The position numbers were made by a program, and so were the translations under genes. Positions 4,776-28,192 of a stretch of 28,192 nucleotides of DNA are shown piece after piece (position 1 is the first letter of the stretch; every line of letters begins with the position of its first letter). The DNA is from a virus. The DNA lies in IMG/VR virus record IMGVR_UViG_3300034812_000060, positions 1 through 28,192 of that record; one strand, written 5' to 3'. The notes under the pieces are model-generated. The model saw nothing but the letters and a program-made list of their open reading frames with translations, was not told where the DNA came from and did not search any database.

Positions 4776-5137
4776 ATAATTATGTAATCATTGTCGTACT
4801 CGTCATTTCCTGTTGGAATTGTATATTCCCCACTATTAACTGTATAATAACTGTTATTAGCTTGATTAATAGTTTGATTAGTACAAAATATCTTGTCTTT
4901 ATATATTACACTTGTTCCCTCTTTTACTGTCATATCATAAAACCTACCCTCTACTAATACAGGACTTAATGCCTGTGATATAACTAGATAATTCTTGTCT
5001 GTTGAGGTGCTTATACTTCCGTATGTTGTTGAGGTGTTTGTTGAATCATCTCTCAAAATCATACTTACTGTACTAGCATAACTTCTTGGAATTATTTTTA
5101 ATGTTTGTGCAGATGCAGTTGTCGTCAAGTGTATCAT
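4772..5137 (-). CDS. Structural-type protein upstream of portal, 121 aa
   Basis: The 121-aa protein is beta-rich and full of Ser/Thr/Tyr, with a hydrophobic DKIFCTNQ strand and an acidic Tyr/Asp C-terminus. It looks like the small beta-sandwich proteins found next to the portal in flavobacterial phages; a head decoration, adaptor or fibre role is possible. It is the first gene of the portal-fibre unit. The ATG is preceded at fixed distance by the CGTTATA late element, and two terminators lie upstream, so its transcription is independent of the capsid genes. The 3' end overlaps the portal start (ATGA). Confidence 0.6.
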   Translation of the reverse strand: MIHLTTTASAQTLKIIPRSYASTVSMILRDDSTNTSTTYGSISTSTDKNYLVISQALSPVLVEGRFYDMTVKEGTSVIYKDKIFCTNQTINQANNSYYTVNSGEYTIPTGNDEYDNDYIII

Positions 5138-5142
5138 ACTTA

Positions 5143-5150
5143 TATAACGT
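5143..5150 (-). promoter_or_regulatory. Late promoter element (CGTTATA), portal unit
   Basis: On the minus strand the sequence is ACGTTATA, then TAAGT, then the ATG of the 121-aa gene. The same ACGTTATA/GCGTTATA with the same 5-nt gap precedes genes at 7494, 9752 and 16687. If TTATAT acts as a -10 box, transcription would begin at or next to the ATG, giving a leaderless mRNA. The site lies directly downstream of a terminator, as expected of a promoter for a new unit. Confidence 0.6.
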
Positions 5151-5170
5151 ACAAACTTTAAATTTTGTGT

Positions 5171-5203
5171 AAGAAAAAAGGGGTAACACTCCTGCTACCC
5201 CTT
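5171..5203 (-). terminator. Rho-independent terminator T2
   Basis: There is a perfect 8-bp stem (5178-5185 with 5196-5203, AAGGGGTA/TACCCCTT) and a 10-nt loop. On the minus strand it is followed by a T-rich tract (TTTTTTCTT counting the stem end). It stops minus-strand transcription from the capsid/tube unit before the late element at 5143. Confidence 0.85.
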
Positions 5204-5242
5204 ATAAAGAAAATTACTCATCATAAATATACATAAAATATT

Positions 5243-5279
5243 TAAATAAAAAAAAGAGGAGTTAAAAAAACTCCCCTTT
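5243..5279 (-). terminator. Rho-independent terminator T1
   Basis: An 11-bp stem (5253-5263 with 5269-5279) carries one G-T wobble and a 5-nt A/T loop. On the minus strand it is followed by a long T tract. It lies about 65 nt after the tail-tube stop codon and about 50 nt before T2, so the two act in series. Confidence 0.85.
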
Positions 5280-5324
5280 AAAACAAAAACTAATTTAAAA
5301 ATTATGAAAACTTTAAAAGTTTAT

Positions 5325-5337
5325 CTAATATACAAAA
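5325..5337 (-). promoter_or_regulatory. TTTTGTATATTAG motif, possible promoter
   Basis: The minus strand carries TTTTGTATATTAG, identical to 13 nt of the better-supported promoter at 21709-21739. The TATATTAG part differs from the Bacteroidetes -7 box (TAnnTTTG) at one position. No TTTG -33 box is visible at the right distance. If active, it would yield a short RNA of about 75 nt ending at T1, or a relay promoter. Support is weak. Confidence 0.25.
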
Positions 5338-5343
5338 TTAATT

Positions 5344-5868
5344 TTAATTTGGTGTGATTTGAGTACCCTCTGTTGCACCATCTATTACAGATTTCTGTAC
5401 AAATAATGGAGGATTTTGTTCAGATGTCGTAAAGGTTAAAGAATAACCAGACATATCTCCCATAGCTGCTCCACTACTAAACGTACCTGTAGTAAGCTCA
5501 CAACCATTATTTTCTCCTAGTAAAAAGAAATTCCCATTATAATCAGCTACAATGATTTGTGGTCTTGCTACTGCTAACAGCTTTATTTCTTCTGACGTAC
5601 TTTTTTCTTGGAATGTTAAGTTTAAAACTAAACTTGATTCGTAGAAAGTAGTTCCGTTTTCTCTAGATGAGGTAACAGTGGTGTCTAGCGTTGAGTTACC
5701 TTTTATGTCAAACTTCATAAGTGTTGGACTTCCACCAAAACCAGATACTTCTCCACCTGATTGAGTTAAAGCACCAAGACCACCGAAGTCCACAAAGTAA
5801 ACAGCTTTTAAACCACCTACTCCTGATTTACAGGGTAACGCTCTACCTTTTGTTAATATACAAGCCAT
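5344..5868 (-). CDS. Major tail tube protein (probable)
   Basis: The 174-aa protein has an N-terminus with two Cys (MACILTKGRALPCK), then a beta-rich body. The body contains VTSSRENGTTFYESSL, an ARPQIIVADYNGNFFLLGE strand pair and a GAAMGDMSGYSLTFT segment. This pattern is what I know from the tail-tube-like proteins encoded just after the capsid gene in Bacteroidetes siphoviruses. The protein would polymerise into the tail tube around the tape measure. It lies between a hairpin (T0) and two terminators (T1, T2), so its expression relative to the capsid is probably set by read-through of T0. The annotation is by family resemblance and context. Confidence 0.6.
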   Translation of the reverse strand: MACILTKGRALPCKSGVGGLKAVYFVDFGGLGALTQSGGEVSGFGGSPTLMKFDIKGNSTLDTTVTSSRENGTTFYESSLVLNLTFQEKSTSEEIKLLAVARPQIIVADYNGNFFLLGENNGCELTTGTFSSGAAMGDMSGYSLTFTTSEQNPPLFVQKSVIDGATEGTQITPN

Positions 5869-5880
5869 ATTTTCTAAGTA

Positions 5881-5913
5881 TTAAAAAAGGGTAGGCAGAA
5901 TACCACCCACCCT
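5881..5913 (-). terminator. Hairpin/terminator T0 between capsid and tail tube genes
   Basis: The stem is 5888-5895 with 5906-5913 (8 bp with one G-T wobble) and a 10-nt loop. On the minus strand a run of six T follows, ending about 12 nt before the tail-tube ATG at 5868. It looks like a partial terminator that lowers tube transcription below capsid transcription; mRNA 3'-end protection is another possibility. Confidence 0.7.
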
Positions 5914-5938
5914 CTTATATGTTAATTTAATTTATTTA

Positions 5939-6865
5939 TTATACTGCTGGGTCGTAAAGAACACAATCAGCACCGATACCGATTTGTACCCCTGCTGTAT
6001 ATCTCATTACTACTCTTACATTTTGACTTCCATCAATGTCAGACATATCAATAACTTTAACTTCGTTTCTGTCATTTAATAGACCTGTTCCGAAGAATAA
6101 GTTAGAGCTTCTTGCTGCTAATGCACAGTTGTTTGGTAAACCACTTGTTGGGTACATTTTTACTCCGTCAAATGATACTGCGCCACCTTGATACCACATA
6201 TGCGATTGTGCATCTACACCTGAGTTAGTTGCAGCAAAACCACCTAAAGCTCTTACATACGCTTTAAAAATGTTTTGTGATACATAAAGGTATAAGTCAT
6301 CTGCACCATAAACTCCACTAGGAATAGCATCAATAACTTTACCCATTTCAGAAACTACGTTAGCTGAAGTTACAGTAGTACCTGTAATATCACTAACAGT
6401 TGAATCATCTACTGCTAATTTTCTAAAACCATTGAAGTTACCCTCTCCTGCTAAACCTTGCCAGATAGAAGTTTCAGTTGCACTTGCAACCTCTGCTGCT
6501 ACTCTTGCAATAACAAAGTCAGAGAATAATGGAGGTAAATTATCAAAAGCAGAAAAGCCCATTTGAGCAGCTTCCCAATCAGCGTGTAATTCTTTTTTAC
6601 AAATCTGTAGGTTTACCTGTAATTCAGTTGGTGTTAATACTTTTTCAGTAAGTGTAAGAGTTGAAGTCGAAGAATCGAAATCACAATCTGCACTTCTTAC
6701 TAAATTTTCAAATGCTCCTACTTTCATAGCAGCTTTGTACTTAATGTTTGGCATAATAGTTATTGCAGCATCATCTAATGTTTTAGCTGTTAATAAACTC
6801 GCAGCGATATATTTACCTGCAAATTCTCCTGCATAACTACTTGCTGTAATTGTTGGATTTGGCAT
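5939..6865 (-). CDS. Major capsid protein, HK97-fold type
   Basis: The 308-aa protein has no signal peptide. It starts MPNPTITASSYAGEFAGKY, with an early segment rich in Ala and hydrophobic residues, and a central long helix region (LPPLFSDFVIARVAAEVASA, about 120-140). A beta region follows, with a C-terminal strand set (VRVVMRYTAGVQIGIG). Length, layout and the acidic scaffold-like gene directly upstream match the HK97-fold capsid proteins of Bacteroidetes phages. It builds the icosahedral head. The A-rich leader (AAAATTAAGTAAAATG) is a typical flavobacterial start region. A hairpin follows the stop. No N-terminal delta domain is evident, consistent with a separate scaffold. Confidence 0.85.
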   Translation of the reverse strand: MPNPTITASSYAGEFAGKYIAASLLTAKTLDDAAITIMPNIKYKAAMKVGAFENLVRSADCDFDSSTSTLTLTEKVLTPTELQVNLQICKKELHADWEAAQMGFSAFDNLPPLFSDFVIARVAAEVASATETSIWQGLAGEGNFNGFRKLAVDDSTVSDITGTTVTSANVVSEMGKVIDAIPSGVYGADDLYLYVSQNIFKAYVRALGGFAATNSGVDAQSHMWYQGGAVSFDGVKMYPTSGLPNNCALAARSSNLFFGTGLLNDRNEVKVIDMSDIDGSQNVRVVMRYTAGVQIGIGADCVLYDPAV

Positions 6866-6876
6866 TTTACTTAATT

Positions 6877-7494
6877 TTAATTATTGGTTAATTTTTTCAT
6901 TACTCTATCTAAAGCAGTTTCTTTTCTGTTATTTCCGAATCTTACTTTAAATTGTTCTTTAGCTTCAGGGTTGTGAGAGATTGGTTCTACAGCAGGAGTT
7001 TCGCTTAACTCTTGCTTAACTTGCTCCTCTACTTGTGCCATTTCTTCTTTTTCATCCTTTAGCTCTTTAATCATACCTTTGATTTCCTCAACGGCAGATT
7101 CAAATTCCTCTTTGGAAACGTACATTTCTTCTTCTTCAGCTAATTCTTCAGAAGCATCAATAGCATCTTCCTCCTCTACAGTAGGTTCTTCTGCTTCTCC
7201 TGCTTCTTTAATTTCGCCTATAATACCCTCCTCTGAAACAACTAGCATTCTACCATCTTCCATTAGGTATTCCCCTGTTGGTACTGCTACTTTTTCGTCA
7301 TCAGATATAATAAAGATTTCGTTTCCTGCTTCAAAAGCTTCTGCTTCTAAAACTGTTCCGTTTTCAAGTTTAGCTTGTGCTAACTCTACTTTGACTTCTT
7401 CAGAAGTTTCTTCTAATTGAGTTTCTTCAACTTGCTCAATTTTTTCATCTCCTAAAAAAGTTTTGATTTTGTTTAAGATTTCTGTTGATTTCAT
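6877..7494 (-). CDS. Capsid scaffolding protein (probable)
   Basis: The 205-aa protein is extremely acidic. The first third is Glu-rich; residues about 40-95 form a small beta domain (NGTVLEAEAFEAGNEIFIIS, then a GEYLMEDGRMLVV strand). A long coiled coil (about 125-165) and a basic C-terminus (FGNNRKETALDRVMKKL) follow. An acidic coiled-coil protein with a basic C-terminal hook, encoded 11 nt before the major capsid gene, fits a scaffold that binds capsid monomers and is removed by the protease encoded upstream. Its ATG is preceded by the late element, making it the first gene of the capsid unit. Confidence 0.7.
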   Translation of the reverse strand: MKSTEILNKIKTFLGDEKIEQVEETQLEETSEEVKVELAQAKLENGTVLEAEAFEAGNEIFIISDDEKVAVPTGEYLMEDGRMLVVSEEGIIGEIKEAGEAEEPTVEEEDAIDASEELAEEEEMYVSKEEFESAVEEIKGMIKELKDEKEEMAQVEEQVKQELSETPAVEPISHNPEAKEQFKVRFGNNRKETALDRVMKKLTNN

Positions 7495-7499
7495 ATTAC

Positions 7500-7507
7500 T
7501 ATAACGT
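7500..7507 (-). promoter_or_regulatory. Late promoter element (CGTTATA), capsid unit
   Basis: The minus strand reads ACGTTATA, GTAAT, then ATG of the scaffold gene. The 5-nt spacing to the start codon is identical at 5143, 9758 and 16693. It would place scaffold, capsid and tail tube under their own promoter. Confidence 0.6.
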
Positions 7508-7529
7508 ATTTAAATTTATATTTGCATTT

Positions 7530-7955
7530 TTATAATAGTCTTAAATATTGATTTGCATTTTTGTAAGATTCCATTAGCTCTTTACCTTTATCTTTTGCAA
7601 ATTTTTGCACTTCATTAAGATAGCCATAATTGTCTACATTGTCAGGTTTTACTCCTAATGCACTTGCAGCTTCTTTAATTTTTTGTCGCATATCATCGGT
7701 CTCACTTTTAAAACCTTTTAATTCATCTGCAAAGTCTTTTGCTTCTTTTGCAATTTTTTCTAATTCTATTATTTCAGCACGTACTTTAACAACCTGACTG
7801 TCTATTTTTTTAATGTCTTGTGTAGCTTCATCTATAGCTCTTTCTATTTCATCTATCACATCTTGTGATTTATCAACAACATTTAATTGTACTTTTTCTG
7901 TTGATAATTCTTGTTTTGTAACTTGCGCTACATAGTTCATCGCTTTTTTTCTCAT
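7530..7955 (-). CDS. Coiled-coil protein of the head cluster, 141 aa
   Basis: The 141-aa protein is almost entirely helical, with heptad-like Ile/Val/Leu spacing over residues 30-115 and a basic start (MRKKAMNYV). Its early segment STEKVQLNVVDKSQDVIDEIE resembles the matching segment of the 117-aa protein at 8090-8443 in pattern (S-x-E/R-V-x-L, then D, then I-E). Both contain an LG[VI] turn later, so the two may be diverged duplicates. Position between protease and scaffold suggests a role in head assembly. No family is assigned. Confidence 0.7.
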   Translation of the reverse strand: MRKKAMNYVAQVTKQELSTEKVQLNVVDKSQDVIDEIERAIDEATQDIKKIDSQVVKVRAEIIELEKIAKEAKDFADELKGFKSETDDMRQKIKEAASALGVKPDNVDNYGYLNEVQKFAKDKGKELMESYKNANQYLRLL

Positions 7956-7958
7956 AAC

Positions 7959-8090
7959 TTATATTTTACCGATTCCTTGATTTATTATATTACCCTTACA
8001 GCACTTGACTGAATAGGTTTCATCTTTACATAAACAACCTCTACGCCCACCTCTTGGACTTGTCTTACTTGGTGTTTCAAATTTTTTCAT
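7959..8090 (-). CDS. Cysteine-rich small protein, 43 aa
   Basis: Read directly on the minus strand: ATG 8090-8088, stop TAA 7961-7959. The ATG overlaps the previous stop (TAATG), and the stop lies 3 nt before the next ATG. The product has a basic Gly/Arg stretch (SPRGGRRGCLCKDETYSVKC) and four Cys (19, 21, 30, 31) that could bind zinc or form disulfides, then NQGIGKI. Similar Cys-Leu-Cys small proteins are common in flavobacterial phage head clusters. Function is unknown. Confidence 0.75.
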   Translation of the reverse strand: MKKFETPSKTSPRGGRRGCLCKDETYSVKCCKGNIINQGIGKI

Positions 8091-8443
8091 TAATAGATAT
8101 CTGTTAGTTTTCTTGCTATTGTACCTAAAACTGCTACTTGTCCTGAAGCAATTTTTAATTCTTTTTTTGCTTTTTCGATATCTGAGTTTTTGCCAATACC
8201 TAATTCTTTTAATGCTTGTTCTGCTTTATCAATGCCATCTTTTAGAGCAATTATTTTCTGATTTAATGGTTTTGCTGCTGCATCAACTTTACCTCTCAAT
8301 GCTTTTGCACCATCTACAGCAATACTTAATGCATCTTTCCATTCAGATTCTATATCAGAAGAAACTTTTTTAACCTCGTCGATTAAACCTAACTCTACTC
8401 TTTCTTTGCTAAATAGCATTTTACTTATTCTTTTTTTACTCAT
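8090..8443 (-). CDS. Coiled-coil protein of the head cluster, 117 aa
   Basis: The 117-aa helical protein has a basic start (MSKKRISKMLFSKERVELGL) followed by a long heptad-patterned stretch and a GIGKNS turn near residue 85. It resembles the 141-aa protein two genes on, and the pair flanks the Cys-rich small protein. ATGA overlaps the stop of the 39-aa basic protein, and its own stop overlaps the next ATG (TAATG), so translation is tightly coupled. Role is unknown; a scaffold-associated or minor head protein is an inference from position. Confidence 0.7.
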   Translation of the reverse strand: MSKKRISKMLFSKERVELGLIDEVKKVSSDIESEWKDALSIAVDGAKALRGKVDAAAKPLNQKIIALKDGIDKAEQALKELGIGKNSDIEKAKKELKIASGQVAVLGTIARKLTDIY

Positions 8444-8559
8444 CTTCCTTGACCTTTATATTTTTTTTTATATCCTGTTTGTCCTACACTCGCATTTTTG
8501 CTATGAGGGTGTGATTTACGTTTTGGTTTTATATATGTTCTAACAACCTTACGAGCCAT
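8440..8559 (-). CDS. Small very basic protein, 39 aa
   Basis: Read directly on the minus strand: ATG 8559-8557 overlaps the protease stop (TAATG), and TGA 8442-8440 overlaps the next ATG. More than a third of residues are Lys, Arg or His (start MARKVVRTYIKPKRKSHPHS). Such short basic proteins beside XkdF-type proteases are frequent in tailed phages. DNA or scaffold binding is a guess from charge alone. Confidence 0.7.
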   Translation of the reverse strand: MARKVVRTYIKPKRKSHPHSKNASVGQTGYKKKYKGQGR

Positions 8560-9752
8560 TACTTAATAGGAATGCAATTAGGTACTTTTCTACCATTTTT
8601 GATTTTCATTCCGTATTGTCTGTAACCTGCTTGACAAGGTTTTTCTAGTTTGTGTTGTTCACAAGGCATATACCAAGTTTTACCCTCAAACTCGTGTTCG
8701 TGGTATTTATCACAACCTATATCTTTTGCTGCTTGTATTGCTAACTCTTTTGTTGCGTATGCTAGTCTATCATCTATAATAGCTAAATCATTACTTACAA
8801 TCATAGAAGCTAATTCTATCTCTCCTAATTCTTTTAGTTTAGATTCTGACCATCTTAACCCTGCTTTACCACCCCATAAAAGGTAGGAGATAGTACCACA
8901 AGCTTTTGTATCTCCCTCATCGTAGTATTCTTGCGCTCTGCTTAAATAAGAGTACATTCTCTTAATTGTTTCTTTAGAAATTGGTTTACCTTGTGCTAAT
9001 TGACTTGCTCGTATCTTGCCTACTTGTGTAGCGCATTTGTTGTTTACTTTTCCGTTTAATTCTATACCTCTTTTAGCGTTGTTTTTTAACGCATCAGGGT
9101 AATCGCTATATGATTCTAGTTCTCGTCTTTTACCACCCTTTAAACGCTTGTCCTCTTTTATTATAGACCTTATTACAGACAGCATTTCACTTGCTTCTGC
9201 TTCTTCTATGTCTGCAAAGTCGTTTACAGGCTCTTTTGGTCTTTCCATTTTATCTGCAAAGTAACCCTCTATCGAAAAACCTTTAACTTTACCTGTTTTA
9301 ACAAAGTTGTTCCATATTTCTTCGTTGTTTACCTTAACAGCACCCATCCAAGTACCTACAGGCACATTCAAACCATATTTACGAGATTTATCGTGTACCT
9401 CATCTTCTACTAACCAAGATTCTACTAATGTTAGTCCGTTAATTGTGTGTTGGTGTTCTAATGTGGCTTTAGATTGATTACCGTTCATTAAATAAAGCTG
9501 TGATGCTTTTTCTACTGTATCTTTTGAGAAATATATGTAATATTCTTCTTCTCCTTTTTTTCTGTAGATAGGTTTATTAGGAATAAGTAAAGCACCCATT
9601 AAGATACGCTTTTCCTTATCTACCTCTGCAAGTTTAATTTCCTCGCTTTTAAGTGCTATAAAATCTTCTTCTATTGCAGGGTTTTCAACTACTGAAATAG
9701 CTTCGATTCCTGTTAGTTCATCATCTCCCAAAATAAGTTCTACGATTCTCAT
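8559..9752 (-). CDS. XkdF-type prohead protease with C-terminal extension
   Basis: The 397-aa protein's residues 1-165 match the XkdF putative serine protease family. They contain LLIPNKPIYR, then ATLEHQHTINGLTLVESWLV with the likely catalytic His, then GTWMGAVKVNNEEIWNNFVK and GKVKGFSIEGYF. This protease would remove the scaffold during head maturation. Residues about 215-310 form a second helical domain with two Cys (DYPDALKNNAKRGIELN, KACGTISYLLWGGKAG). The C-terminus has a Cys/His-containing module ending EKPCQAGYRQYGMKI. The gene begins with the CGTTATA late element and heads the head cluster. The role of the extension is unknown. Confidence 0.85.
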   Translation of the reverse strand: MRIVELILGDDELTGIEAISVVENPAIEEDFIALKSEEIKLAEVDKEKRILMGALLIPNKPIYRKKGEEEYYIYFSKDTVEKASQLYLMNGNQSKATLEHQHTINGLTLVESWLVEDEVHDKSRKYGLNVPVGTWMGAVKVNNEEIWNNFVKTGKVKGFSIEGYFADKMERPKEPVNDFADIEEAEASEMLSVIRSIIKEDKRLKGGKRRELESYSDYPDALKNNAKRGIELNGKVNNKCATQVGKIRASQLAQGKPISKETIKRMYSYLSRAQEYYDEGDTKACGTISYLLWGGKAGLRWSESKLKELGEIELASMIVSNDLAIIDDRLAYATKELAIQAAKDIGCDKYHEHEFEGKTWYMPCEQHKLEKPCQAGYRQYGMKIKNGRKVPNCIPIK

Positions 9753-9757
9753 ATTAT

Positions 9758-9765
9758 TATAACGT
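9758..9765 (-). promoter_or_regulatory. Late promoter element (CGTTATA), head cluster
   Basis: The minus strand reads ACGTTATA, ATAAT, then ATG of the protease gene. The short gap after the tape-measure gene contains only this element and A/T-rich sequence. Confidence 0.6.
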
Positions 9766-9783
9766 ATTAAATTAATTTTTTGT

Positions 9784-11571
9784 TTATCCTATACTTGCTC
9801 CTTGAATAATATTTCTGTCTAACTCTTGTGCAGTACTTACATCATTAGAAACTACAAACGCTTGTACAGGTTGTTGAGCTTGTTCTCCTAATGCTTCAGC
9901 AAGTTGATTTGTTTCACTTGCACCAACTACGTTAAATGCAGGTGCAGATGGTGTTGATGTAGCAGGTACAGAAATACCACCACCAGAACTACCTCCATTT
10001 GGCGCAGGAGGAGGTTTTGACGCTGCAATTTGTTTTATGTTAGCAATACCTGCTGCAATTACTGCTGCTGCACCAACAAAACCAAACATACCCCCTTGTG
10101 CTAGTGCTTTATTAGCACCTGCATAAGTGTCTTGTAATGCTTGTACTATTGCTATGGCTTTTCCAAACTTTGAATTTTTGCCAACTATTGTAGCTATATT
10201 ACCTAAAGTTTGTTTAAGTTGTCCCTCTTTAGCAACACCTAAATCTTTTTCTATTTTTTCTTGTTGGTTTGCATTAGCTTGTTGGTAATCTAATAATTCA
10301 TTGTTTGCGTCAATATATGCTTGTGTACCCTCTGCATAAGAATCTCTTTTCATTGTAAGCCTTTTTTCTTCAATCTCGCTTTCTATTTCAAGGTTTTCTT
10401 TCATCTTTTCAAGTCGTCTAACTTCGTTTTGTTCCATTTCTGCATTGAAGTTTCGTTGCTCTGATTGTCTTAATGCAGTTGCTTCATCATTAGATAACTC
10501 TAATTCCATTTTTTCTTTTAATAATGCAACTCTGTTAGATTCTTGCTCTGACATAAAGCCCTCTATTTGTGCTTCTATTGCTTTCTTCTCGTTTCTAGCT
10601 TCAAGTAGTGCTAACCTATCTTCTTCTAGACCTGATAACTTAAATTGTAACTCGGCTTGTTGTATCATCAAGTCAGCATTTGCTAACATAGCTTTTTCTT
10701 GTTCTTCAAGTGTAGCTTTTAAATTATCATTAGCAGCTATTCTATCATCAATACTTTTTAAATCATTATCTCTAATTTGTCTTTGTTGTTCTGCTTGTCT
10801 ATCGTATTGTTCAATAAGACCTTGATTAACTATTCTTGCTTCAGCTGCTGCTTTTTTAAGTTGTTCGTTTGCTGCAACATTTTCTGCTATTGCTTTTACA
10901 CTAATATTACTTAAACCCTCTACTACTTGTGAACCTATGTTTCCAACTTCACTAACTGCTTCACTAAAATCATTAACGATTGCTGAACCTGCTTCTGCAA
11001 CTCCTACGGCTGTATCAACAAGGCTTTGTTTTGTTTCGCCTATTTTTTCATTTAATGCTGCAATTTTTTCTGTATCTCCACTACCAAAAAAAGATTGTTC
11101 CCAAGCTAACTGTGCTGAATAAAAAGCTAATGCCAAACCATCAATAAGTAATTTAAATGGTGCTAAAGCTATTTTAAAAACATTACTAACCACCCTGCCT
11201 AAAGCATCAAAGTTTTCTGTAGTAGATGTTAAGTTTGTAACCACACTTACTAAAACATTAGAAACCTCTGTAAATACTTGCCCTATTGTACCGAATACTA
11301 CTGCGAAAGCATCAGCAACTTGTTGATTACTATTTATTGCTGCTTTTAAACCCTGAAATGCTTTTTCTAATAAAAATATAATACCCCCTGCTTTTCCTAT
11401 ATTGCCTAATACTTTACCAAATTTATTAAGCCCTTTTTCTGTTTTTTTAGAATCTTCTTGTAACTTTTGAAACGAATCTTTAACTTCTTCTAGTTCTTTT
11501 TTTAAAGCTTCTATTTCTTTTACAGCCTTTCCTGACATTAATTTTAATTCTGCTTCTACTACTGTTGCCAT
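9784..11571 (-). CDS. Tail tape measure protein
   Basis: The 595-aa protein begins with a coiled coil (residues 5-50), then hydrophobic stretches near 55-80 (GGIIFLLEKAFQGLKAAI) and about 95-165. A very long Gln/Glu/Ala-rich coiled coil spans roughly 250-450. A Gly/Ala hydrophobic segment near 495-520 (FVGAAAVIAAGIANIKQI) and a Pro/Gly/Ser-rich C-terminus follow. This is the standard tape-measure architecture that fixes tail length and helps DNA entry. At 595 residues it predicts a short tail (about 90 nm by the usual 1.5 Å per residue rule). Its ATG lies inside the end of the 46-aa gene. Confidence 0.8.
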   Translation of the reverse strand: MATVVEAELKLMSGKAVKEIEALKKELEEVKDSFQKLQEDSKKTEKGLNKFGKVLGNIGKAGGIIFLLEKAFQGLKAAINSNQQVADAFAVVFGTIGQVFTEVSNVLVSVVTNLTSTTENFDALGRVVSNVFKIALAPFKLLIDGLALAFYSAQLAWEQSFFGSGDTEKIAALNEKIGETKQSLVDTAVGVAEAGSAIVNDFSEAVSEVGNIGSQVVEGLSNISVKAIAENVAANEQLKKAAAEARIVNQGLIEQYDRQAEQQRQIRDNDLKSIDDRIAANDNLKATLEEQEKAMLANADLMIQQAELQFKLSGLEEDRLALLEARNEKKAIEAQIEGFMSEQESNRVALLKEKMELELSNDEATALRQSEQRNFNAEMEQNEVRRLEKMKENLEIESEIEEKRLTMKRDSYAEGTQAYIDANNELLDYQQANANQQEKIEKDLGVAKEGQLKQTLGNIATIVGKNSKFGKAIAIVQALQDTYAGANKALAQGGMFGFVGAAAVIAAGIANIKQIAASKPPPAPNGGSSGGGISVPATSTPSAPAFNVVGASETNQLAEALGEQAQQPVQAFVVSNDVSTAQELDRNIIQGASIG

Positions 11572-11699
11572 ACGTCTTTTTTAAAGTTGTTATACACTTC
11601 TTTTATGCTTTCTGGGTATTTGTATTTACCCTTTGCTATGTCTATAAGTTCTGTGCCACCCTCAACATAGGTAAGCATTTCTAATATGTTTTTTATCAT
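11559..11699 (-). CDS. Small protein before tape measure, 46 aa
   Basis: Read directly on the minus strand: ATG 11699-11697 overlaps the TGA of the 765-aa gene (ATGA), and TAG 11561-11559 lies 13 nt inside the tape-measure gene. The product starts MIKNILEMLTYVEGGTELID and is helical and basic at the C-terminus. The double overlap strongly suggests real coupled translation. It might assist tape-measure folding, but nothing in the sequence proves it. Confidence 0.65.
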   Translation of the reverse strand: MIKNILEMLTYVEGGTELIDIAKGKYKYPESIKEVYNNFKKDVWQQ

Positions 11700-13993
11700 A
11701 ATACGTTTAATAATTCTATTTTTGCTTCGCCTGTTGTAAGGTTTGTTGTTATGTTGTTTATTCTATATTTAAAACCTTTTATTATGAATATATCGTTAAG
11801 CTCATAATTCAATAATATACTTAATGGTAATATTGCTTTTATTTTGGTTAATCTATTTTTTGTGTTGAAAATATTTGTGATATAATTCTTATAATAGTTT
11901 TCAAATAATGTTCCACTAAAACTTACTGCCTGATATTCATTTATCATAGCACCGAAATTGATATTATCCTCGCCTGATGATGTGCTTAAATACCTGCTGT
12001 TAGAGGGTATGTTGTATGTTGTCTCTTCTGTAGGAGTTGATGCACCTTTAAAAGAAACAGCCGTTGTTGATACTTGTCTTAACGGATAAAACAATAGTGG
12101 TTTAGATAAAAATGCGTTTTGGTCTTTGTTAGCACTCCAACCTACTTGAATAGCTGTAGTTGGAAACCTTTCATATTTAAAATGTGCAAAGGGTAATTCT
12201 ATTTTATAAGTGCTACCTGATAATCTGTAAGAGTTTGTATCTTCGTTATAATTTAAAGAACCCCACTCCTCGTTAAACAACTGATTATGATTATCGGCTA
12301 AAAATGTTTCTAAACCTTGATATTTAAATTCAATTTCTTTATATGGTAGAGCTACATCAACTTGTTTAGTTTCTATATCTACATAGTCGGTTATATCATA
12401 TTCAGTTGAATTGTTTGTGTGATAAAAAGATGCAGTATCAGAATTGTCTAATGTTCTTACTTCTATTTTTCCAGAACTATTAACAAACGCCACTAGATTA
12501 AACATCTTAAACAAACCTGAAACAAAGTCAATAACCTTTATATCAGGCATTTGGTCTGCTACGTCAAAAGTAGAAATAGCAGGAGTTTGAAATGCGCCTG
12601 TAGAAGCTGTTGTGCCTGTGTAACTTTCTGTTAAAAAACTTCCGTAAGCATCTTCGTAATTAAAACTACCACTAACAGTAAAAACTACATTTGTGATTTG
12701 AACAACACCATCTGCACTTATCCTAACCCTGTACATACCTGTTTGTGCTGTAGGGTTCAATGTTACTGTTGAGGTTGGTGTACTACTAGAAACAGTTAGT
12801 TCGTCTGAACCATTTCTAATCAATGTTACAGTAAAATTATTTGAGTTTGAGCCATTAGGGGTTATATCTATTTGTAAAGAAGTTATACTACCTGATAAAT
12901 CTATTCCTGTGTCTAATGCCCTAAAACCTGATTCATCTTCAATACCTATTTCTGGTTCACCACCTGTAAAACTTGAAACAAAAAACGAAAACGAATTTGC
13001 GCCTGTTGTTGTAGCAACTTCGCCTGATTTTCTTGATAACCATAAAAACAAATTATGATAATTAGCATTAGACGTACTAAAAAAATCTGTAGTGAAATCT
13101 ATAGCAGTTGGGTAGCTAGGAGTTGTGTAAGTGTTCTCTATTGCTTTGATTACTTCGTGTACTCTTAATGCGAATTTTAAGTCAGTATATTCTAAACCTC
13201 TGTTAGTACCTGCATCATATTTAAGATTTACTATTGTATCGCTTTGTGCTGTACTGTCATCATAAACAGGTCGCCTACCTGCTGTTATTAAAGGAGTAAT
13301 TAAACTGTTTTTTATTGAAGAAGATTGTAGAGGTAACTTTGCAAGTACAGCAGTAGAGTTCCAAAACGGACTTAATAAGATTTGATAATCTTCTGAATTA
13401 CCCATTATATCAGCATCAAGAGTTAGTTCAGTAGCACTATTGATTGTAGTTATTGTTGCGTAAGAGTTGTCTGTTGTATTATAAACTCTGTCTCCTGCTG
13501 ACACACCTGTTATACTATCTAAAAAACCACCTGAACTATCTTTTAATTTATTTGTTGCTGCACCTGATGAGTTTGTTGTTCCTGATTTTTTAACCTCAAC
13601 AAAACTTAAGTCCTTTAGTTTATCTTCTTTAAATATATCTTTTAAATCTACTGTGTTACCAAAAAATGTAACTCTATATGTGTGTGGTAGTTCGCTTTTT
13701 AGTTCTACTCCCTCTAGCTTTATTTTGCCTGTCTTAAATGGTGCTTGATTAATCTCTATTCTTGCATCTCTTTTTATTCTACCATCATAACCATTTATAA
13801 TATCAAAATTGTAGTAGTGTTGAAATAGTTTGTTGTTAGTTTTTGAAGCAGGTAATGTAAATGATTTTGTGAATGTTGTAAATACTTTTGCAATATCTCT
13901 TACATTCTTTATAGAATCTGTCAGGCTTATTGTTTCGTCTTTGAATAAATCAACCCTATTATTTGATATGTATAATTGTACTTCACGCTTCAT
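11696..13993 (-). CDS. Large tail protein (tail tip/baseplate type), 765 aa
   Basis: The 765-aa protein's N-terminal 125 residues are a conserved-looking beta domain (LFKDETISLTDSIKNVRDIA; FTLPASKTNNKLFQHYYNFD). A Ser/Thr-rich beta middle follows, with a Ser/Gly/Thr-rich segment around residues 140-200 resembling inserted Ig- or carbohydrate-binding-like folds. A C-terminal beta domain ends GEAKIELLNVL. I recognise the N-terminal pattern from structural proteins of Bacteroidetes siphoviruses, where it lies beside the tape measure gene. A tail hub or baseplate role is inferred. It overlaps both neighbours (TAATG at 13993, ATGA at 11699). Confidence 0.6.
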   Translation of the reverse strand: MKREVQLYISNNRVDLFKDETISLTDSIKNVRDIAKVFTTFTKSFTLPASKTNNKLFQHYYNFDIINGYDGRIKRDARIEINQAPFKTGKIKLEGVELKSELPHTYRVTFFGNTVDLKDIFKEDKLKDLSFVEVKKSGTTNSSGAATNKLKDSSGGFLDSITGVSAGDRVYNTTDNSYATITTINSATELTLDADIMGNSEDYQILLSPFWNSTAVLAKLPLQSSSIKNSLITPLITAGRRPVYDDSTAQSDTIVNLKYDAGTNRGLEYTDLKFALRVHEVIKAIENTYTTPSYPTAIDFTTDFFSTSNANYHNLFLWLSRKSGEVATTTGANSFSFFVSSFTGGEPEIGIEDESGFRALDTGIDLSGSITSLQIDITPNGSNSNNFTVTLIRNGSDELTVSSSTPTSTVTLNPTAQTGMYRVRISADGVVQITNVVFTVSGSFNYEDAYGSFLTESYTGTTASTGAFQTPAISTFDVADQMPDIKVIDFVSGLFKMFNLVAFVNSSGKIEVRTLDNSDTASFYHTNNSTEYDITDYVDIETKQVDVALPYKEIEFKYQGLETFLADNHNQLFNEEWGSLNYNEDTNSYRLSGSTYKIELPFAHFKYERFPTTAIQVGWSANKDQNAFLSKPLLFYPLRQVSTTAVSFKGASTPTEETTYNIPSNSRYLSTSSGEDNINFGAMINEYQAVSFSGTLFENYYKNYITNIFNTKNRLTKIKAILPLSILLNYELNDIFIIKGFKYRINNITTNLTTGEAKIELLNVL

Positions 13994-14961
13994 TACACTA
14001 TTGTATTGATAACCTCGTTAGCATATTCGACCTCAATCGCATATTGAATTAATCTATCATTCACAGACGTTTTAAATGTTAGTGAGCTAGTAGATATATT
14101 TACAGTTCTCCAAGCACTATCAAAATAGATATAAACAAATTCGCTTAACATTATGTCTTGTATAACCTCATTATAACACTCGTCTATGTAGTGTGTGTTT
14201 AATGTAAGTTTAGTTCTTGCGTTTTTATCAAAAACTTTTGTTTGATGTCTATATATAGAATAATTAGATGTTGCTTCCCTAAATAAATTTCTTTTAAACT
14301 TTTCTTCTTTAGTGGTAAATGATTCTACGCTTTTAAGGAAGAAATAAAACTCCTGCCACATACCATATCTATTTAAGTAAACAGATTTAATACTTGTGTA
14401 TTTTGGGTTACACACCCTTTCAACATTATATGTTCTCATAGGAGTATCTACAGAAGTGTCTGTTGTTCCAATACTAAATACTGCCAAAACAGGCGTTGTG
14501 TCATCAGTCCATCCTATTAATTTTCCTGCTGTGTTATCAGGTAAATAAATTATACCATCTCCTACAGGCACTCTAGTTAATTCGCAATCTCCAACATAGG
14601 TTGGGTCTTGACTTGTAGGTAATTCGTAATTTACACCTTGTCCGAACTTACCATATCCGTTGAAACCTGTGTGAGTTACTGCAGATTGTGCTGTAGCTGT
14701 ACCTCCACCATCTACTGCTGTATAAGTTGTTACAACATAAGATATTGCAAGTGTGTCTGCTATTATTGTAGTGCCAACAAAATTTTCTTCAAAATAATCC
14801 CTAACTAAAGTAGCTATTTCAAATACTGTTCTGTTGCTTATAGCGTTTTTAAGTATTGTATAGCGTAAAGTACCATCTATCGTTAATGCTAGTTGTGCAG
14901 ACAGATGACCTGCTGTAGTAATTGTTACGAAGTACGGACTTCTAAATAGTATATTAGCCAT
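13993..14961 (-). CDS. Tail structural protein (distal-tail type), 322 aa
   Basis: The 322-aa protein begins MANILFRSPYFVTITTAG and is beta-rich throughout. It has a Thr/Ala/Gly-rich middle and a C-terminal half with many aromatic residues (SVYLNRYGMWQEFYFFLKS). Position between the gp10-like completion protein and the 765-aa tail protein, in a tightly overlapping string, fits a component of the tail tip or distal tail. No enzymatic motif is visible. The family is known to me only as an unnamed structural protein in flavobacterial phages. Confidence 0.55.
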   Translation of the reverse strand: MANILFRSPYFVTITTAGHLSAQLALTIDGTLRYTILKNAISNRTVFEIATLVRDYFEENFVGTTIIADTLAISYVVTTYTAVDGGGTATAQSAVTHTGFNGYGKFGQGVNYELPTSQDPTYVGDCELTRVPVGDGIIYLPDNTAGKLIGWTDDTTPVLAVFSIGTTDTSVDTPMRTYNVERVCNPKYTSIKSVYLNRYGMWQEFYFFLKSVESFTTKEEKFKRNLFREATSNYSIYRHQTKVFDKNARTKLTLNTHYIDECYNEVIQDIMLSEFVYIYFDSAWRTVNISTSSLTFKTSVNDRLIQYAIEVEYANEVINTIV

Positions 14962-15490
14962 TAGTGAATATTATTTTTTCTATGTCTTTAACAAAATTCT
15001 CTTGTAGTTCAAGAGGTAATTTCTCATATGCTTGATTAAAAGGTTTCGTAAAAAACATACTTGCTTTTATACCCTTTTGAAATATACTCCTTGCAATTAA
15101 AAATTGTAAAGTTTTGTTTGTTATGAATCTTCCTGTTTTTTTATCTCTACCCTTAATACCCTTTCTTTTTATGTAACCCTCAAATATTGCAGGGTTTGGC
15201 ATACTAGACCTATAAGAAAAAGGAGAGTTTTTATTTTCTACATAATTGGACTTTGTACCTTTAACACCTTTGTCTTGGAACTTACCATAATCTTCCATAT
15301 AAAACTTTACCCCTATCTTATCTCCATCTATAAAAGGTAAATACTCTAAACTGTTGTATAGTTTTCTTGTATCGTTTTTAGAAAATCTTTTACTTCCCTT
15401 TTTAACTCCTTTTGTAAGTCGTGTCCTAGCTTGTTGTATTACAAACTTTGCAAACTTATTTAAGGCTTCTCTGGTTTCTTTTAACTGCAT
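14954..15490 (-). CDS. HK97 gp10-like tail completion protein
   Basis: The 178-aa basic protein has the features of this family in Bacteroidetes phages: a helical N-terminus, a central MEDYGKFQDKGVKGTKS motif, KRKGIKGRDKKTGRFI in the middle and FFTKPFNQAYEKLP near the end. gp10-type proteins sit at the head-tail joint or complete the tail before the terminator protein. The start overlaps the tail-terminator gene by 10 nt and the end overlaps the 322-aa gene by 8 nt. Confidence 0.7.
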   Translation of the reverse strand: MQLKETREALNKFAKFVIQQARTRLTKGVKKGSKRFSKNDTRKLYNSLEYLPFIDGDKIGVKFYMEDYGKFQDKGVKGTKSNYVENKNSPFSYRSSMPNPAIFEGYIKRKGIKGRDKKTGRFITNKTLQFLIARSIFQKGIKASMFFTKPFNQAYEKLPLELQENFVKDIEKIIFTNG

Positions 15491-15954
15491 ACGTTTATAT
15501 CATTTGCGATTAATACATTAAATGTACAAGCTACACCTGCTAGTTGATTTTCAAACCTTTCATAAAAAAACTCACAAGAAGCATCTCCATCTAGTTGATA
15601 TTCGTTTTGGTATAAAGTACCTTTGCTTAATAAGCCTACTAATTTGTTGGCTACTGCTAATTGTGTGTTGAGGATGTCTTGCTCATTATTGTTGCCTACG
15701 AATATGTCTGTTGTTTCGTCTTTGCTTACATCAACTATATCCATACACATAACACTAATGTTAAAGTTGAGGACTGCCTCTTGTATTGTTACAGAGTTTA
15801 CTATAATATGAGCTAAAGGAAATATCGTTTGTTTAGCTAGGTCTATTTCTGTTATATCGCCTGTTGTTACAGTATTGACATTTTCATCTGCTAACAGATT
15901 TGTCTTAATAGTATCTGTAATTTGGTAATAGCCTCTTACTCCTTGATTGCTCAT
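15481..15954 (-). CDS. Tail terminator protein (probable)
   Basis: The 157-aa alpha/beta protein contains FPLAHIIVNSVTIQEAVLNF, CMDIVDVSKDETTDIFVGNN and NEQDILNTQLAVANKL, with a C-terminal FENQLAGVACTFNVLI strand. This matches, in my recollection, the neck/tail-terminator proteins next to gp10-like genes in flavobacterial phages. It would cap the tail tube. Its ATG overlaps the TGA of the frameshifted tail chaperone (ATGA at 15954-15951), which itself supports that the frameshift frame is translated. Confidence 0.65.
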   Translation of the reverse strand: MSNQGVRGYYQITDTIKTNLLADENVNTVTTGDITEIDLAKQTIFPLAHIIVNSVTIQEAVLNFNISVMCMDIVDVSKDETTDIFVGNNNEQDILNTQLAVANKLVGLLSKGTLYQNEYQLDGDASCEFFYERFENQLAGVACTFNVLIANDINVCS

Positions 15955-16687
15955 CTGTTAAATTTGTTTTTTATACTTCTTGATTCTAAATCTGCCTTTT
16001 CTTTCATAAATGTCAAAGCATAAAGACAGGTGTGTATGTTTAGTTTAGTGATATCTTCAAATCGTCTAATATCCCCTTGACATAATCCCCAAAGCGACTG
16101 AAACCATCCATATTTTCTTCCGAAATTTGCTGTTGCACTATGTTGATTTCCTCCTCCTCCAAAGAGTTCAGCATAGCTTTCGATAAGTCCATCCCTAAAT
16201 TGTAAAAAAAAAGTATAGAACTTAATACAGCGTCCATAGGCATATCTTTCATTATATTGGTTTCTTCTCCTTTGTAATCTTCTATAAGATACCTGTCTTT
16301 GTCTTTTACTTTAATTGGTCTATATAGAACTGCCATAGCTTTATGTATATTTTCCATATCGCCTATAAAAGTGTCAAGGTCAATATACTCTCCAAAGGAC
16401 ATATCTTGTAAATTAGGTATAAAACCATAACTCTCTCCACCCATATCAAACTCCTTTACAAGTTGAGGTTTTTCTTCAAACATCTTTGTTAGTACTGTAG
16501 TTATATCTCTAATGCTTTTAGCTTTCATAGCTAATATTGTGTCTCCTCTTAAACCACAAAAAATCTCTATCATTTTCATAGCTAAAAAGTTCTCATCTTC
16601 ATTTAGAGATTGTATCTTTAAATACTTTTGATATTGTCCTAGAGTAATTTCACTTAATGTGTCTGGGATATAAACTTCTAATTTCAT
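15951..16687 (-). CDS. Tail assembly chaperone, -1 frameshift fusion product (245 aa)
   Basis: This is the G-T analogue: the first about 160 residues come from the 16040-16687 frame, then a -1 slip in the T9 run at 16212-16204 leads into a second frame of about 85 residues ending at TGA 15953-15951. The second frame encodes a sensible tail: GLIESYAELFGGGGNQHS, FGRKYGWFQSLWGLCQGDI, RRFEDITKLNIHTCLYAL and a Lys-rich helix. It has no ATG until its last 19 codons and is open from just after a TAG about 34 codons upstream of the T9 run. The stop overlaps the next gene's ATG. Long and short forms at a fixed ratio are typical of siphovirus tail chaperones, which wrap the tape measure. The reading frame is seen; frameshifting itself is inferred. 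Confidence 0.75.
16040..16687 (-). CDS. Tail assembly chaperone, short (unshifted) product (215 aa)
   Basis: This is the G analogue. The 215-aa helical, acidic protein begins MKLEVYIPDTLSEITLGQYQ, a pattern I associate with tail chaperone-like proteins downstream of the terminase in Bacteroidetes phages. The last 55 residues, after the T9 run, are a Glu/Gln-rich helix ending DDLKISLN. The first about 160 residues are shared with the frameshifted form. It is the first gene of the tail unit: the CGTTATA element precedes its ATG. Position away from the tape measure (four large genes later) is unusual, since the chaperone pair normally lies directly before it. Confidence 0.7.
   Translation of the reverse strand: MKLEVYIPDTLSEITLGQYQKYLKIQSLNEDENFLAMKMIEIFCGLRGDTILAMKAKSIRDITTVLTKMFEEKPQLVKEFDMGGESYGFIPNLQDMSFGEYIDLDTFIGDMENIHKAMAVLYRPIKVKDKDRYLIEDYKGEETNIMKDMPMDAVLSSILFFYNLGMDLSKAMLNSLEEEEINIVQQQISEENMDGFSRFGDYVKGILDDLKISLN
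16204..16212 (-). other. Slippery T9 run for -1 frameshifting
   Basis: On the minus strand, zero-frame codons read CTT TTT TTT TAC. The heptamer T TTT TTT is in the correct phase for simultaneous -1 slippage of two tRNAs. It is the only in-phase X XXY YYZ-type site I find in the overlap. No convincing downstream stem-loop was seen. Transcriptional slippage on nine T residues would give the same product. Confidence 0.7.
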
Positions 16688-16721: not shown

Positions 16722-17891
16722 CTAACTTATTGTGTACTTACCTCTATTAGGGTTTGCTAATTGCATCATTAAAGCGTATCGAGCTGCATCAATACAATCA
16801 GGGTGTGTACCTGTAGGTTTTTGTAGATTATTACCCTCTTTGTCTTTATCCCATACATAACCCTGTAATTCTCTTATTAGGTTTTTAGAATTGCTTGTTA
16901 TGTATATTTCGTTTTGGTTGATTAAGTTGATACCATAGACTATTGAATCTCTACCCTTTGTTACAGGAAATACTTTGTGTCCGTAGTTTCTTAATTCTTG
17001 TATTGATTTAGGTTCTGCACTATCTGCGTATATGTGTTCTAGTATGTCGTTTTGTTTTATGAAGTAGCTTAAATCTCTGTTTAACATTCCTTTACGATAT
17101 AATACCTCATCAAAGATATAAGCATCATTCCATTTATAAAGTCTTATGATAGTTGAGGGGTCTACTGAATAACCAAAGTCAAGACCTGCACATAATAATC
17201 TAGCTTCATTAGGTATTTGGTCTATAGGTTTCCAATCAGGAATACATACACCCTCTAAACTACCAATTTGTCCAAGTCCGTACACTTTCCACCAATTCGC
17301 CCAATAGGTTGAGGTCTTTGCCTTTGTCTTTGCTTTCTCTATTTCTTTTACTATTGTTTGTGGTAGGCTGTTATTGTCTTTGTAGGTTAGTGTTATAAAG
17401 TCCGTATCTTGCTGACCTATTAATTCTTTATCTACCCAAAATAAGTTAGCAGGGTTGAAGTCAAGCCATATATTGCCTGATGTTCTAACTGCTAATTGTT
17501 GGTAGGAATCAAAGCCTACATTGTTGCACTCGTTTATAAATAAGTCTGTTCTTCTTGCACCTCTTAATTTGTCTGGTTGGTCTGTACTAAAGAACTCTAT
17601 ATAACTACCATTACTGAATTCGTATTTTAAGGTACTTTTGTTAAACTTTCTATCATCATACCTATTCAGACCTTTAAGTATATTAAGAAAGTCCTTTAAA
17701 GCGCCTCTACGCAAGTGTGGTATTGATTCTGCTACTATGCTAATTTCCTTTCCTTTGTGTCTTATTGCATAGTCGATAAGGATTGCTATAATGCCGATTG
17801 TTTTACCTGCTGAAGAACCTCCTCTAATTATACGAACTCTTTTGTCTAGTTCTCGTAGTTTGTTAAGTGCTAAAGTTTTGGTAAGCTGCAT
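16722..17891 (-). CDS. terL: Terminase large subunit
   Basis: This is the 389-aa DNA-packaging motor. The ATPase domain has Walker A GGSSAGKT at 24-31 and Walker B DLFINE at 116-121 with the catalytic Glu. The nuclease domain shows the expected acidic residues: LDFGYSVDPS (Asp 238), IYADSAEP (Asp 290) and HPDCIDAARYALM (Asp 365/368). It belongs to the PBSX-type terminase family and is slightly short for it. It cuts concatemers and drives DNA into the prohead through the portal. The ATG overlaps the terS stop (TAATG). The missing arginine-rich N-terminal extension seen in some families is normal for this group. Confidence 0.95.
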   Translation of the reverse strand: MQLTKTLALNKLRELDKRVRIIRGGSSAGKTIGIIAILIDYAIRHKGKEISIVAESIPHLRRGALKDFLNILKGLNRYDDRKFNKSTLKYEFSNGSYIEFFSTDQPDKLRGARRTDLFINECNNVGFDSYQQLAVRTSGNIWLDFNPANLFWVDKELIGQQDTDFITLTYKDNNSLPQTIVKEIEKAKTKAKTSTYWANWWKVYGLGQIGSLEGVCIPDWKPIDQIPNEARLLCAGLDFGYSVDPSTIIRLYKWNDAYIFDEVLYRKGMLNRDLSYFIKQNDILEHIYADSAEPKSIQELRNYGHKVFPVTKGRDSIVYGINLINQNEIYITSNSKNLIRELQGYVWDKDKEGNNLQKPTGTHPDCIDAARYALMMQLANPNRGKYTIS

Positions 17892-18174: not shown

Positions 18175-18182
18175 TATAACGC
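18175..18182 (-). promoter_or_regulatory. Late promoter element (CGTTATA), terminase unit
   Basis: The minus strand reads GCGTTATATAAAT. Unlike the other four copies it lies 35 nt before the ATG (terS at 18139), separated by the AATT tract. It begins within the stop codon of the Mom-like gene. A TTGACA sequence lies 19 nt upstream of TTATAT, resembling a -35 box. It would start the terminase unit. Confidence 0.45.
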
Positions 18183-18889
18183 TAATCTTCTTCTTTTTTG
18201 TCAAGATGTTTGTAGTGTTTTGGGTAAGGTTGTTCTTTTAGTAAACATTTTTTCTTTTGCCTTTTGTCTAAAAATTTAATATATCTAAATTGTCTTAATT
18301 TTACTTGCTCTAAAGAATCTTTATCTTGTACTTGTATTCCTGCCTTATCTCTACTTGCAGTAACCTGTATATTGTGATAAAAATTATCACCATCAGTATA
18401 AAAGATAGATAAATGCTCTCCATAGTAGTTAAACGAACAAGCCTGATATACTATCCCAAAGCCACCACATCTTTCATCAGCAAAACTTTGTACCCATTTA
18501 ATTTTTGGGTATTTCTTTTTTATGTATTTTATTGAATAGCTTATTGCTCTACTTTCAGGGTGTTCTCCTACATTATCAGCAATCCACATTCTATTTAATT
18601 CAATAGCATCTCCTTTTTTTGCTCCATTCACAATATTTTTTATTGAATGGTTATTTAACAAATGCCCATATTGTAAAACACCAATTAAATTTTTAGCATT
18701 GAATATACCTAAATGAATATAACTATTGTTAAAGTATTTTTTGCTATAATGATTTTCAACAATCATTTTGTTTGCTATTTTTCTATCAACTTCTTTTACA
18801 TAAAAATCTTTAGTTCCAAAACCTTTACATTCACTTTCACCCCAAAGGCTGTTTTGTGTTGAGTATATGTAAGATTTACTTCCTTTCAT
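18182..18889 (-). CDS. Mom-like DNA modification enzyme
   Basis: The 235-aa protein counts from the ATG at 18889; a TTG at 18898 would add three residues. It has the Mom/GNAT-like core: ENHYSKKYFNNSYIHLGIF (45-63), an LQYGHLL strand, IELNRMWIADNVGEHPESRA (96-115) and QSFADERCGGFGIVYQAC (134-151), followed by NYYGEH. Phage Mu Mom converts adenine to an N6-modified base that protects DNA from host restriction. By family membership this enzyme should modify phage adenines before packaging; position just before terS fits. The basic C-terminal 40 residues may bind DNA. The exact modification cannot be read from sequence. Confidence 0.8.
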   Translation of the reverse strand: MKGSKSYIYSTQNSLWGESECKGFGTKDFYVKEVDRKIANKMIVENHYSKKYFNNSYIHLGIFNAKNLIGVLQYGHLLNNHSIKNIVNGAKKGDAIELNRMWIADNVGEHPESRAISYSIKYIKKKYPKIKWVQSFADERCGGFGIVYQACSFNYYGEHLSIFYTDGDNFYHNIQVTASRDKAGIQVQDKDSLEQVKLRQFRYIKFLDKRQKKKCLLKEQPYPKHYKHLDKKEED

Positions 18890-18995
18890 TTTTGTCAAGC
18901 TGTTTTTTAATTACCTCAACACTCATATAGATTTGGCTTACTATATTCTCTAATCTTTTTATTCTTTGTATTGTAGTGTATTTCTTTTGTTTCAT
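18876..18995 (-). CDS. Small basic coiled-coil protein, 39 aa
   Basis: Read directly on the minus strand: ATG 18995-18993 overlaps the TGA of the 108-aa gene (ATGA), and TAA 18878-18876 lies inside the start of the Mom-like gene. The protein is a single amphipathic helix rich in Lys (MKQKKYTTIQRIKRLENIVS). The double overlap supports translation; it may couple the Mom-like gene to upstream translation, as Mu's com does for mom, but no zinc finger is present. Confidence 0.55.
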   Translation of the reverse strand: MKQKKYTTIQRIKRLENIVSQIYMSVEVIKKQLDKNERK

Positions 18996-25217: not shown

Positions 25218-25325
25218 AGTTTGAAATTACAAAAAAAAAGTATAACTTCGCCTATATATATATAATATATACACTTCCCTTAAACAACTTACCCTGTAAA
25301 TAATATATATGAATTATATATACCC
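25218..25325 (-). promoter_or_regulatory. Non-coding gap before NinG with alternating AT tracts
   Basis: The 108-nt gap contains two alternating (TA)n tracts, at about 25252-25272 and 25302-25322. On the minus strand it also contains TTATAC followed by T9 just before the NinG ATG. It must hold the promoter for NinG, since the lysis gene upstream ends at 25326. A TACTTTTT match to the -7 box is present but no clear TTTG partner. Cruciform-prone AT tracts could also serve as an unwinding element. Confidence 0.35.
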
Positions 25326-28166: not shown

Positions 28167-28192
28167 CTTTCTTTGATTTTTTTTCTTTAGCT
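27969..28192. repeat. Right copy of imperfect terminal repeat
   Basis: The match to 1-224 has 11 substitutions. This copy contains the 5' part of the complete membrane coiled-coil gene and the last codons of the 59-aa gene. Joining the ends here makes one continuous gene order with no break. Confidence 0.9.
28159..28192 (-). CDS. Partial second copy of the 59-aa gene (3' end)
   Basis: These are the last codons and TAA stop (28161-28159) of the gene whose full copy is at 191-370, cut by the right edge. It overlaps the start of the membrane coiled-coil gene by 8 nt, exactly as on the left. Confidence 0.8.
   Translation of the reverse strand, partial: AKEKKSKKDG

Follow-up and report, generated by a model that had tools for sequence, protein, structure and literature searches.

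A nine-thymine run between two conserved overlapping frames beside terL suggests a programmed -1 extension of a putative phage tail assembly chaperone

The stretch of DNA analyzed here, hereafter the window, is the IMG/VR virus record IMGVR_UViG_3300034812_000060, 28,192 bases in length, in which the minus strand carries nearly all the long open reading frames. Next to the gene for the large terminase subunit (terL) lies a reading frame, named G in what follows, that contains a run of nine T's (T9); at this run a second frame, named T, is open in the -1 register and continues past the stop of G as far as the start of the following gene. The features needed for the discussion are listed below, all of them on the minus strand.

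16722..17891, minus: terminase large subunit, with the Pfam domains Terminase_3 and Terminase_3C, directly upstream of G
16040..16687, minus: G, the 0-frame gene, an open reading frame of 215 aa, conserved in all relatives; residues 1-161 would be common to both products, the remainder belongs to frame 0 only
16204..16212, minus: T9, the putative slip site, read CTT TTT TTT TAC in frame 0 and containing T_TTT_TTT in register
15951..16208, minus: T, the -1 frame extension, 85 codons plus TGA, homologous in all relatives
16040..16203, minus: dual-coded stretch of about 54 codons, with silent-position diversity damped in both frames
15951..15954, minus: ATGA in the sequence, where the stop of T overlaps the start of the next gene
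15481..15954, minus: gene after T, 157 aa, phrog_30964 (function unknown), possibly tail terminator-like
9784..11571, minus: putative tape measure protein, 595 aa, matching phrog_21537 (virion structural protein, E 1e-4), four genes downstream of T
8559-9752, minus: head protease
5939-6865, minus: capsid-like gene
2979-4775, minus: portal

The T9 spans codons 159-162 of G, and the -1 frame is open for its 85 codons from 16208 to the TGA at 15953-15951, which overlaps the ATG of the next gene at 15954-15952. The coordinates that a preliminary description of this DNA had given for the reading frame, the run, the 85-codon extension and the TGA/ATG overlap were all confirmed, as was the distance of four genes that it had counted from the pair to the tape measure gene: between T and the latter lie four genes in the same direction, encoding 157, 178, 322 and 765 aa. 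The tape measure role itself is a reading from the length, the composition and the place of the protein.

The order of the genes in this part of the window (2979-15954, minus strand) is unusual: the terminase, the tail genes and the putative tape measure gene precede the head protease, the capsid-like gene and the portal. Just upstream of the terminase genes, a Mom-like DNA modification protein is encoded at 18182-18898 on the minus strand (Pfam PF25680, E 3e-65; phrog_1384, E 6e-55). A second T9 on the coding strand (25231-25239, minus) is intergenic and lacks overlapping frames. The two ends of the record (1-224 and 27969-28192) form an imperfect direct repeat of 224 bases with 95% identity, which probably reflects either a complete circularly permuted or circular genome with strain variation in the assembly, or a divergent terminal repeat.

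In scans of viral contigs, 171 relatives were confirmed for the -1 tail and 243 for G, and the 80 best on each side were kept; in all the 108 distinct complete regions obtained from these best relatives the run is exactly T9, the phase is -1, G has about 215 aa and the tail 85-88 aa. Wider scans were started from distant centers, one of them using -1-tail peptides only and another using only G peptides encoded upstream of the slip site, and these searches, keyed to peptides away from the site, gave the same outcome as the other scans. Loci were scored with profile models of both parts and were considered scorable when both domains were found. The -1 register accompanied by T9 or T10 was present in 473 of 474 loci in one set and in 142 of 143 in another. 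The preliminary description had proposed a check on relatives, with those that keep a single frame as the contrary case; in 615 of the 617 scorable loci taken together, both frames and the slippery run are kept in the -1 register.

Once collapsed, these loci represent 476 distinct sequences, falling into 33 groups below 60% tail identity, and the run comprises at least nine T's (T9 or T10) in every one of the 476. Where it is T10 the codon register is shifted, and the two frames still differ by -1. T_TTT_TTT stands in register in all representatives, no member uses a different slippery heptamer, and runs of only seven or eight T's do not occur. The two Phe codons are invariably preceded by NTT (V, L, I or F), and the codon after the heptamer encodes Y, W or L. 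The two Phe codons of the site are never TTC, a codon that makes up 29% of the Phe codons upstream in G; from codon usage alone, the chance of keeping T_TTT_TTT would be about 0.14 per lineage, and of the order of 1e-28 over the 33 groups if these are independent. The conserved two-frame arrangement is neither chance nor sequencing error, and the fact that both frames and the T run are conserved together strongly supports the programmed -1 extension, that is, a frameshift-extended protein that would be made at the run. From the persistence of the frames, the run and the -1 register in 476 distinct sequences we infer that a slip occurs; its frequency and the chaperone role proposed below are likewise inferred.

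The family includes two cultured members, the Nonlabens phages P12024S and P12024L (Inhavirus), with the gene pairs gp38/gp39 and gp40/gp41. As in the window, terL is immediately followed by a G homologue (31% identical) that carries the same T9, and the -1 frame is homologous too; unlike the window, only 27 codons of G follow the slip site, and the locus is annotated as two hypothetical genes with no mention of a frameshift. In P12024S (NC_018271; locus L160, 9444-9695), gp39, annotated as a separate hypothetical gene started at an ATG, covers the final 55 codons of the -1 frame, and the annotation contains neither the slip site nor the GT protein. In a tree of 117 representatives the branch of P12024S is separated from the rest by several changes per column, which indicates that the slip site is old.

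More distantly, gp10 of Flavobacterium phage 6H (Duneviridae), a protein of 191 aa, is a homologue of G (hhalign E 6e-5, with the motif 'FGEYVD') and is encoded in the block that precedes the annotated tape measure gene. In contrast to the window, 6H has no T9, and a stop lies between gp10 and a T-like reading frame. In that genome (NC_021867; locus L325, 10044-10927, minus strand), gp10 ends with TGT TTT TTC TAT, a T-like reading frame of 105 aa follows in the -1 register, and a TAG closes the frame at the site.

The two C-termini appear to be constrained to different degrees. For the largest gapless group, which comprised 48 sequences once dereplicated, the diversity at codon positions 1, 2 and 3 of G is 0.19, 0.13 and 0.43 before the slip site and 0.12, 0.18 and 0.18 in the overlap; past the G stop, in the register of T, it is 0.18, 0.12 and 0.37. 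The excess at third positions after the G stop thus indicates that T is under ordinary coding constraint, and since diversity is reduced at the silent positions of either frame in the overlap of this group, the G frame is constrained there too, a signal that was not seen in a smaller group of 7 sequences. In turn, the AlphaFold model of G has a mean pLDDT of 81, with residues after about 181 below 50, and in it the 0-frame C-terminus is predicted to be disordered; across the family, the length of this segment ranges from 19 to 91 codons. T is predicted to adopt a helical fold (mean pLDDT 79), and it shows a conserved sequence and little variation in length. Consequently, of the two long tails that had been pointed out for the window, T stands as a conserved one with a predicted fold, whereas the variable 0-frame C-terminus, predicted to be disordered, is probably not a second designed tail. 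In our reading, based in part on these models, the latter would be partly constrained without being a second domain of fixed design, and it probably owes its length partly to the overlap.

We propose that the locus gives rise to two products by a programmed -1 shift at T9 and that these are most likely a tail chaperone pair, a reading that we consider quite probable. Ordinary decoding would yield the short form, G, of 215 aa, and the programmed shift the long form, GT, of about 245 aa, both having in common their first 160 or so residues, a folded N-terminal domain. G would bind the tape measure protein, and the major tail protein would be recruited by the T domain of GT, the rarer form. Furthermore, the G stop of the window lies about 85 bases ahead of the ATG of the next gene, so that only the translation of GT would reach that gene, and the stop of T overlaps the next start as ATGA in 76 of the 117 representatives. 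By running into the next gene, GT translation alone may couple the expression of both, and this coupling may matter for the expression of the downstream gene. A comparable coupling has been described for spa13 and spa32 in Shigella (PMC5009743).

As for the shift itself, either the RNA polymerase would add one U on T9, giving a U10 mRNA that is translated straight into GT, or the ribosomes would slip by -1 on U_UUU_UUU. Ribosomal -1 sites have the form X_XXY_YYZ, and they are frequently, but not obligatorily, accompanied by a stimulator, either a downstream structure or an upstream Shine-Dalgarno-like sequence. The run fits both the ribosomal heptamer and the threshold for transcriptional slippage on T runs, given as Tn with n above 8 (PMC3711429).

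Programmed transcriptional slippage, in which the host RNA polymerase would add one U in a fraction of the transcripts and GT would be read from these, has in our judgment an even chance of being the mechanism. The run never falls below nine, which is the published threshold (PMC3711429), and both T10 and a shifted register are tolerated as long as at least nine T's remain. Precedents exist in mxiE and spa13 of Shigella and in dnaX of Thermus (PMC5009743, PMC3711429). The only clade with a non-T base after the heptamer (two representatives, L208 and L236) has an extra T before it, and the run is still nine; as this shift has a single origin on the tree, the compensation of run length is only suggestive. 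On the other side, we found no phage tail chaperone described with such a mechanism, and other long T runs are not avoided among the genes of the window, where runs of eight or more T's number 1 observed against 1.04 expected.

The alternative is ribosomal frameshifting only, similar to that of lambda G/GT, in which tandem slippage of tRNA-Phe on U_UUU_UUU would take place on a uniform transcript; we give it slightly less than an even chance. The characterized tail chaperone pairs are described as ribosomal (PMC5009743), every member carries T_TTT_TTT in register, and constraint at the protein level could explain why the two further T's persist, given the V, L, I or F codon before the heptamer and the Y, W or L codon after it. 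Against this reading, no stimulatory RNA structure was found, the mean folding z being near 0 both upstream and downstream of the site, and a Shine-Dalgarno-like motif is present in only 6 of the 117 representatives. Besides, U_UUU_UUU is among the weaker ribosomal sites in E. coli, weaker than A_AAA_AAG (PMC5009743). The minimum of nine T's, together with the lack of any other heptamer among the members and of the stimulators looked for, makes us lean slightly towards the RNA polymerase. The complete proposal, namely that a large and mostly uncultured phage lineage would set its chaperone ratio by polymerase slippage on nine or more T's, GT being made from a minority of mRNAs with an extra U that alone would be translated into the next tail gene, is a tentative one, to which we assign somewhat less than an even chance.

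With regard to the identity of the pair, the preliminary description had considered it a tail assembly chaperone. That reading is sustained by matches to phrog_166 ('tail protein') in 8 of 73 members (best E 3e-5; none of them a direct match to the window, P12024S or 6H), by one BFVD model matching G that is named tail assembly chaperone (E 0.017), and by the place of the pair among tail genes; it is weakened by the faintness of the homology, as only three members match PF10109 (Phage_TAC_7), at E 0.099 or worse, and by the position of the pair beside terL instead of immediately before the tape measure gene. A place immediately before that gene is usual for tail chaperone pairs, although not defining. 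Neither G nor T had a usable match in sequence searches of Pfam, NCBIfam and the PDB, a comparison of profiles showed no match to gpE of P2, and the fold search of G in the PDB returned only noise, with no solved relative. The fold search of G in BFVD also retrieved P12024S gp38, many unnamed phage proteins and the 191-aa protein of phage 6H. BFVD proteins of 226-267 aa (e.g., A0A516L5A8, A0A516L611 and A0A6J5N0W0) match the models of both G and T, a size expected of a natural G-T fusion, although this comparison of models is suggestive only.

The pair could be real and yet correspond to another phage protein with an extended form, such as a packaging or head-completion factor, in keeping with its adjacency to terL in the window as well as in P12024S and with the weakness of its matches to known chaperones. 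Nevertheless, the phrog_166 matches, the BFVD name and the position of the 6H homologue ahead of the tape measure gene argue against it, as does the fact that -1 extension pairs are in general linked to tail chaperones (PMC5009743), and we regard it as unlikely. Taking together the weak homology, the place among tail genes and the model of lambda G/GT, whose role as a frameshifted chaperone pair is established (PMC5009743), by analogy the pair is probably a tail assembly chaperone.

Translation of T alone from an internal start, with no slip, would agree with the ATG near the middle of the -1 frame of P12024S, annotated as the start of gp39. In the window, however, the first ATG of this frame lies 18 codons ahead of its stop, and among 374 sequences an ATG occurs within the first 40 codons of T in only 6 and is missing from the whole of T in 96; even when GTG and TTG are admitted, an early start exists in 112 of the 374. 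Conservation of the tail sets in at the T run itself, where it reads FFLxFR. The view that the -1 frame cannot be made on its own is upheld for most members, and separate translation of T was rejected as highly improbable, given an early ATG in 6 of 374 sequences only. A sequencing or assembly error, or a T9/T10 phase switch at the DNA level of one continuous gene, is hardly credible and was rejected as a general explanation: long homopolymers are certainly error-prone and the runs of two loci do not fit the -1 register (L328, near 1996, with T9 where its closest relatives have T10 and frames out of step, and L548, near 1998, with G broken upstream; both could be assembly errors), but these are 2 of 617, the other 615 keep that register with T9 or T10, the same run and register recur in independent metagenomes and in a cultured phage, and the T10 loci shift their codon register with the -1 difference retained.

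Frameshift-extended tail chaperones of the lambda kind are characterized by two overlapping frames, in the -1 (or -2) register, that a slippery site joins, and by two products made in a set ratio that bind the tape measure and major tail proteins and do not occur in virions. The arrangement would share with the gpG/gpGT system of lambda, and with the HK97-type pairs, a single start, a longer protein obtained by a -1 shift and a second frame that is not made alone. The lambda pair works with the tape measure and major tail proteins, and the pair of the window may play the same role. Unlike the lambda and HK97-type pairs, a T9/T10 homopolymer is the sole site used, no sequence relation is detectable, and the pair lies beside terL; moreover, the slip site precedes the G stop by about 54-85 codons in most members of the family, whereas in the lambda and HK97-type genes it is near the 3' end. 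In P2, E/E+E' (PF10109, Phage_TAC_7) is likewise a -1 extension pair in a tail operon. It directly precedes the tape measure gene, in contrast to the terL-adjacent pair of the window, and the matches of the family to PF10109 are the three faint ones mentioned above. Finally, mxiE and spa13 of Shigella and dnaX of Thermus thermophilus use, as is proposed here, a homopolymer of about nine (T9 or A9) as recoding site, and, like T, the extension of spa13 runs over the start of the gene that follows (PMC5009743, PMC3711429). These are plasmid and cellular genes in which slippage on the transcript was measured, whereas the present case belongs to phages and is read from sequence.

Frameshifted tail chaperones were already known; what would be new is that the site is fixed at nine or more T's, that a long stretch codes in two frames, that the pair lies beside terL and that the polymerase may be involved. 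A literature search, with poor coverage of subscription journals, found no description of the T9 pair for these phages. The proposed explanation would account for a reading frame that is conserved, yet hidden, in a large phage family known mostly from uncultured members, and would correct the annotation of P12024S and P12024L, where gp39 and gp41 would be the ends of the GT protein. In addition, the locus offers a clean case for the control of a tail chaperone ratio by polymerase versus ribosome, and the fixed minimum of nine T's in very distant relatives could be seen as a natural experiment on the needs of the slip machinery.

A scan of a genome collection yielded one contig, from a Winogradskyella metagenome-assembled genome (MAG). 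This MAG carries at least one copy of the locus, and probably two, on short contigs (L242, L323 and L324); these could be a co-binned phage or a prophage, and they point to Flavobacteriaceae as hosts.
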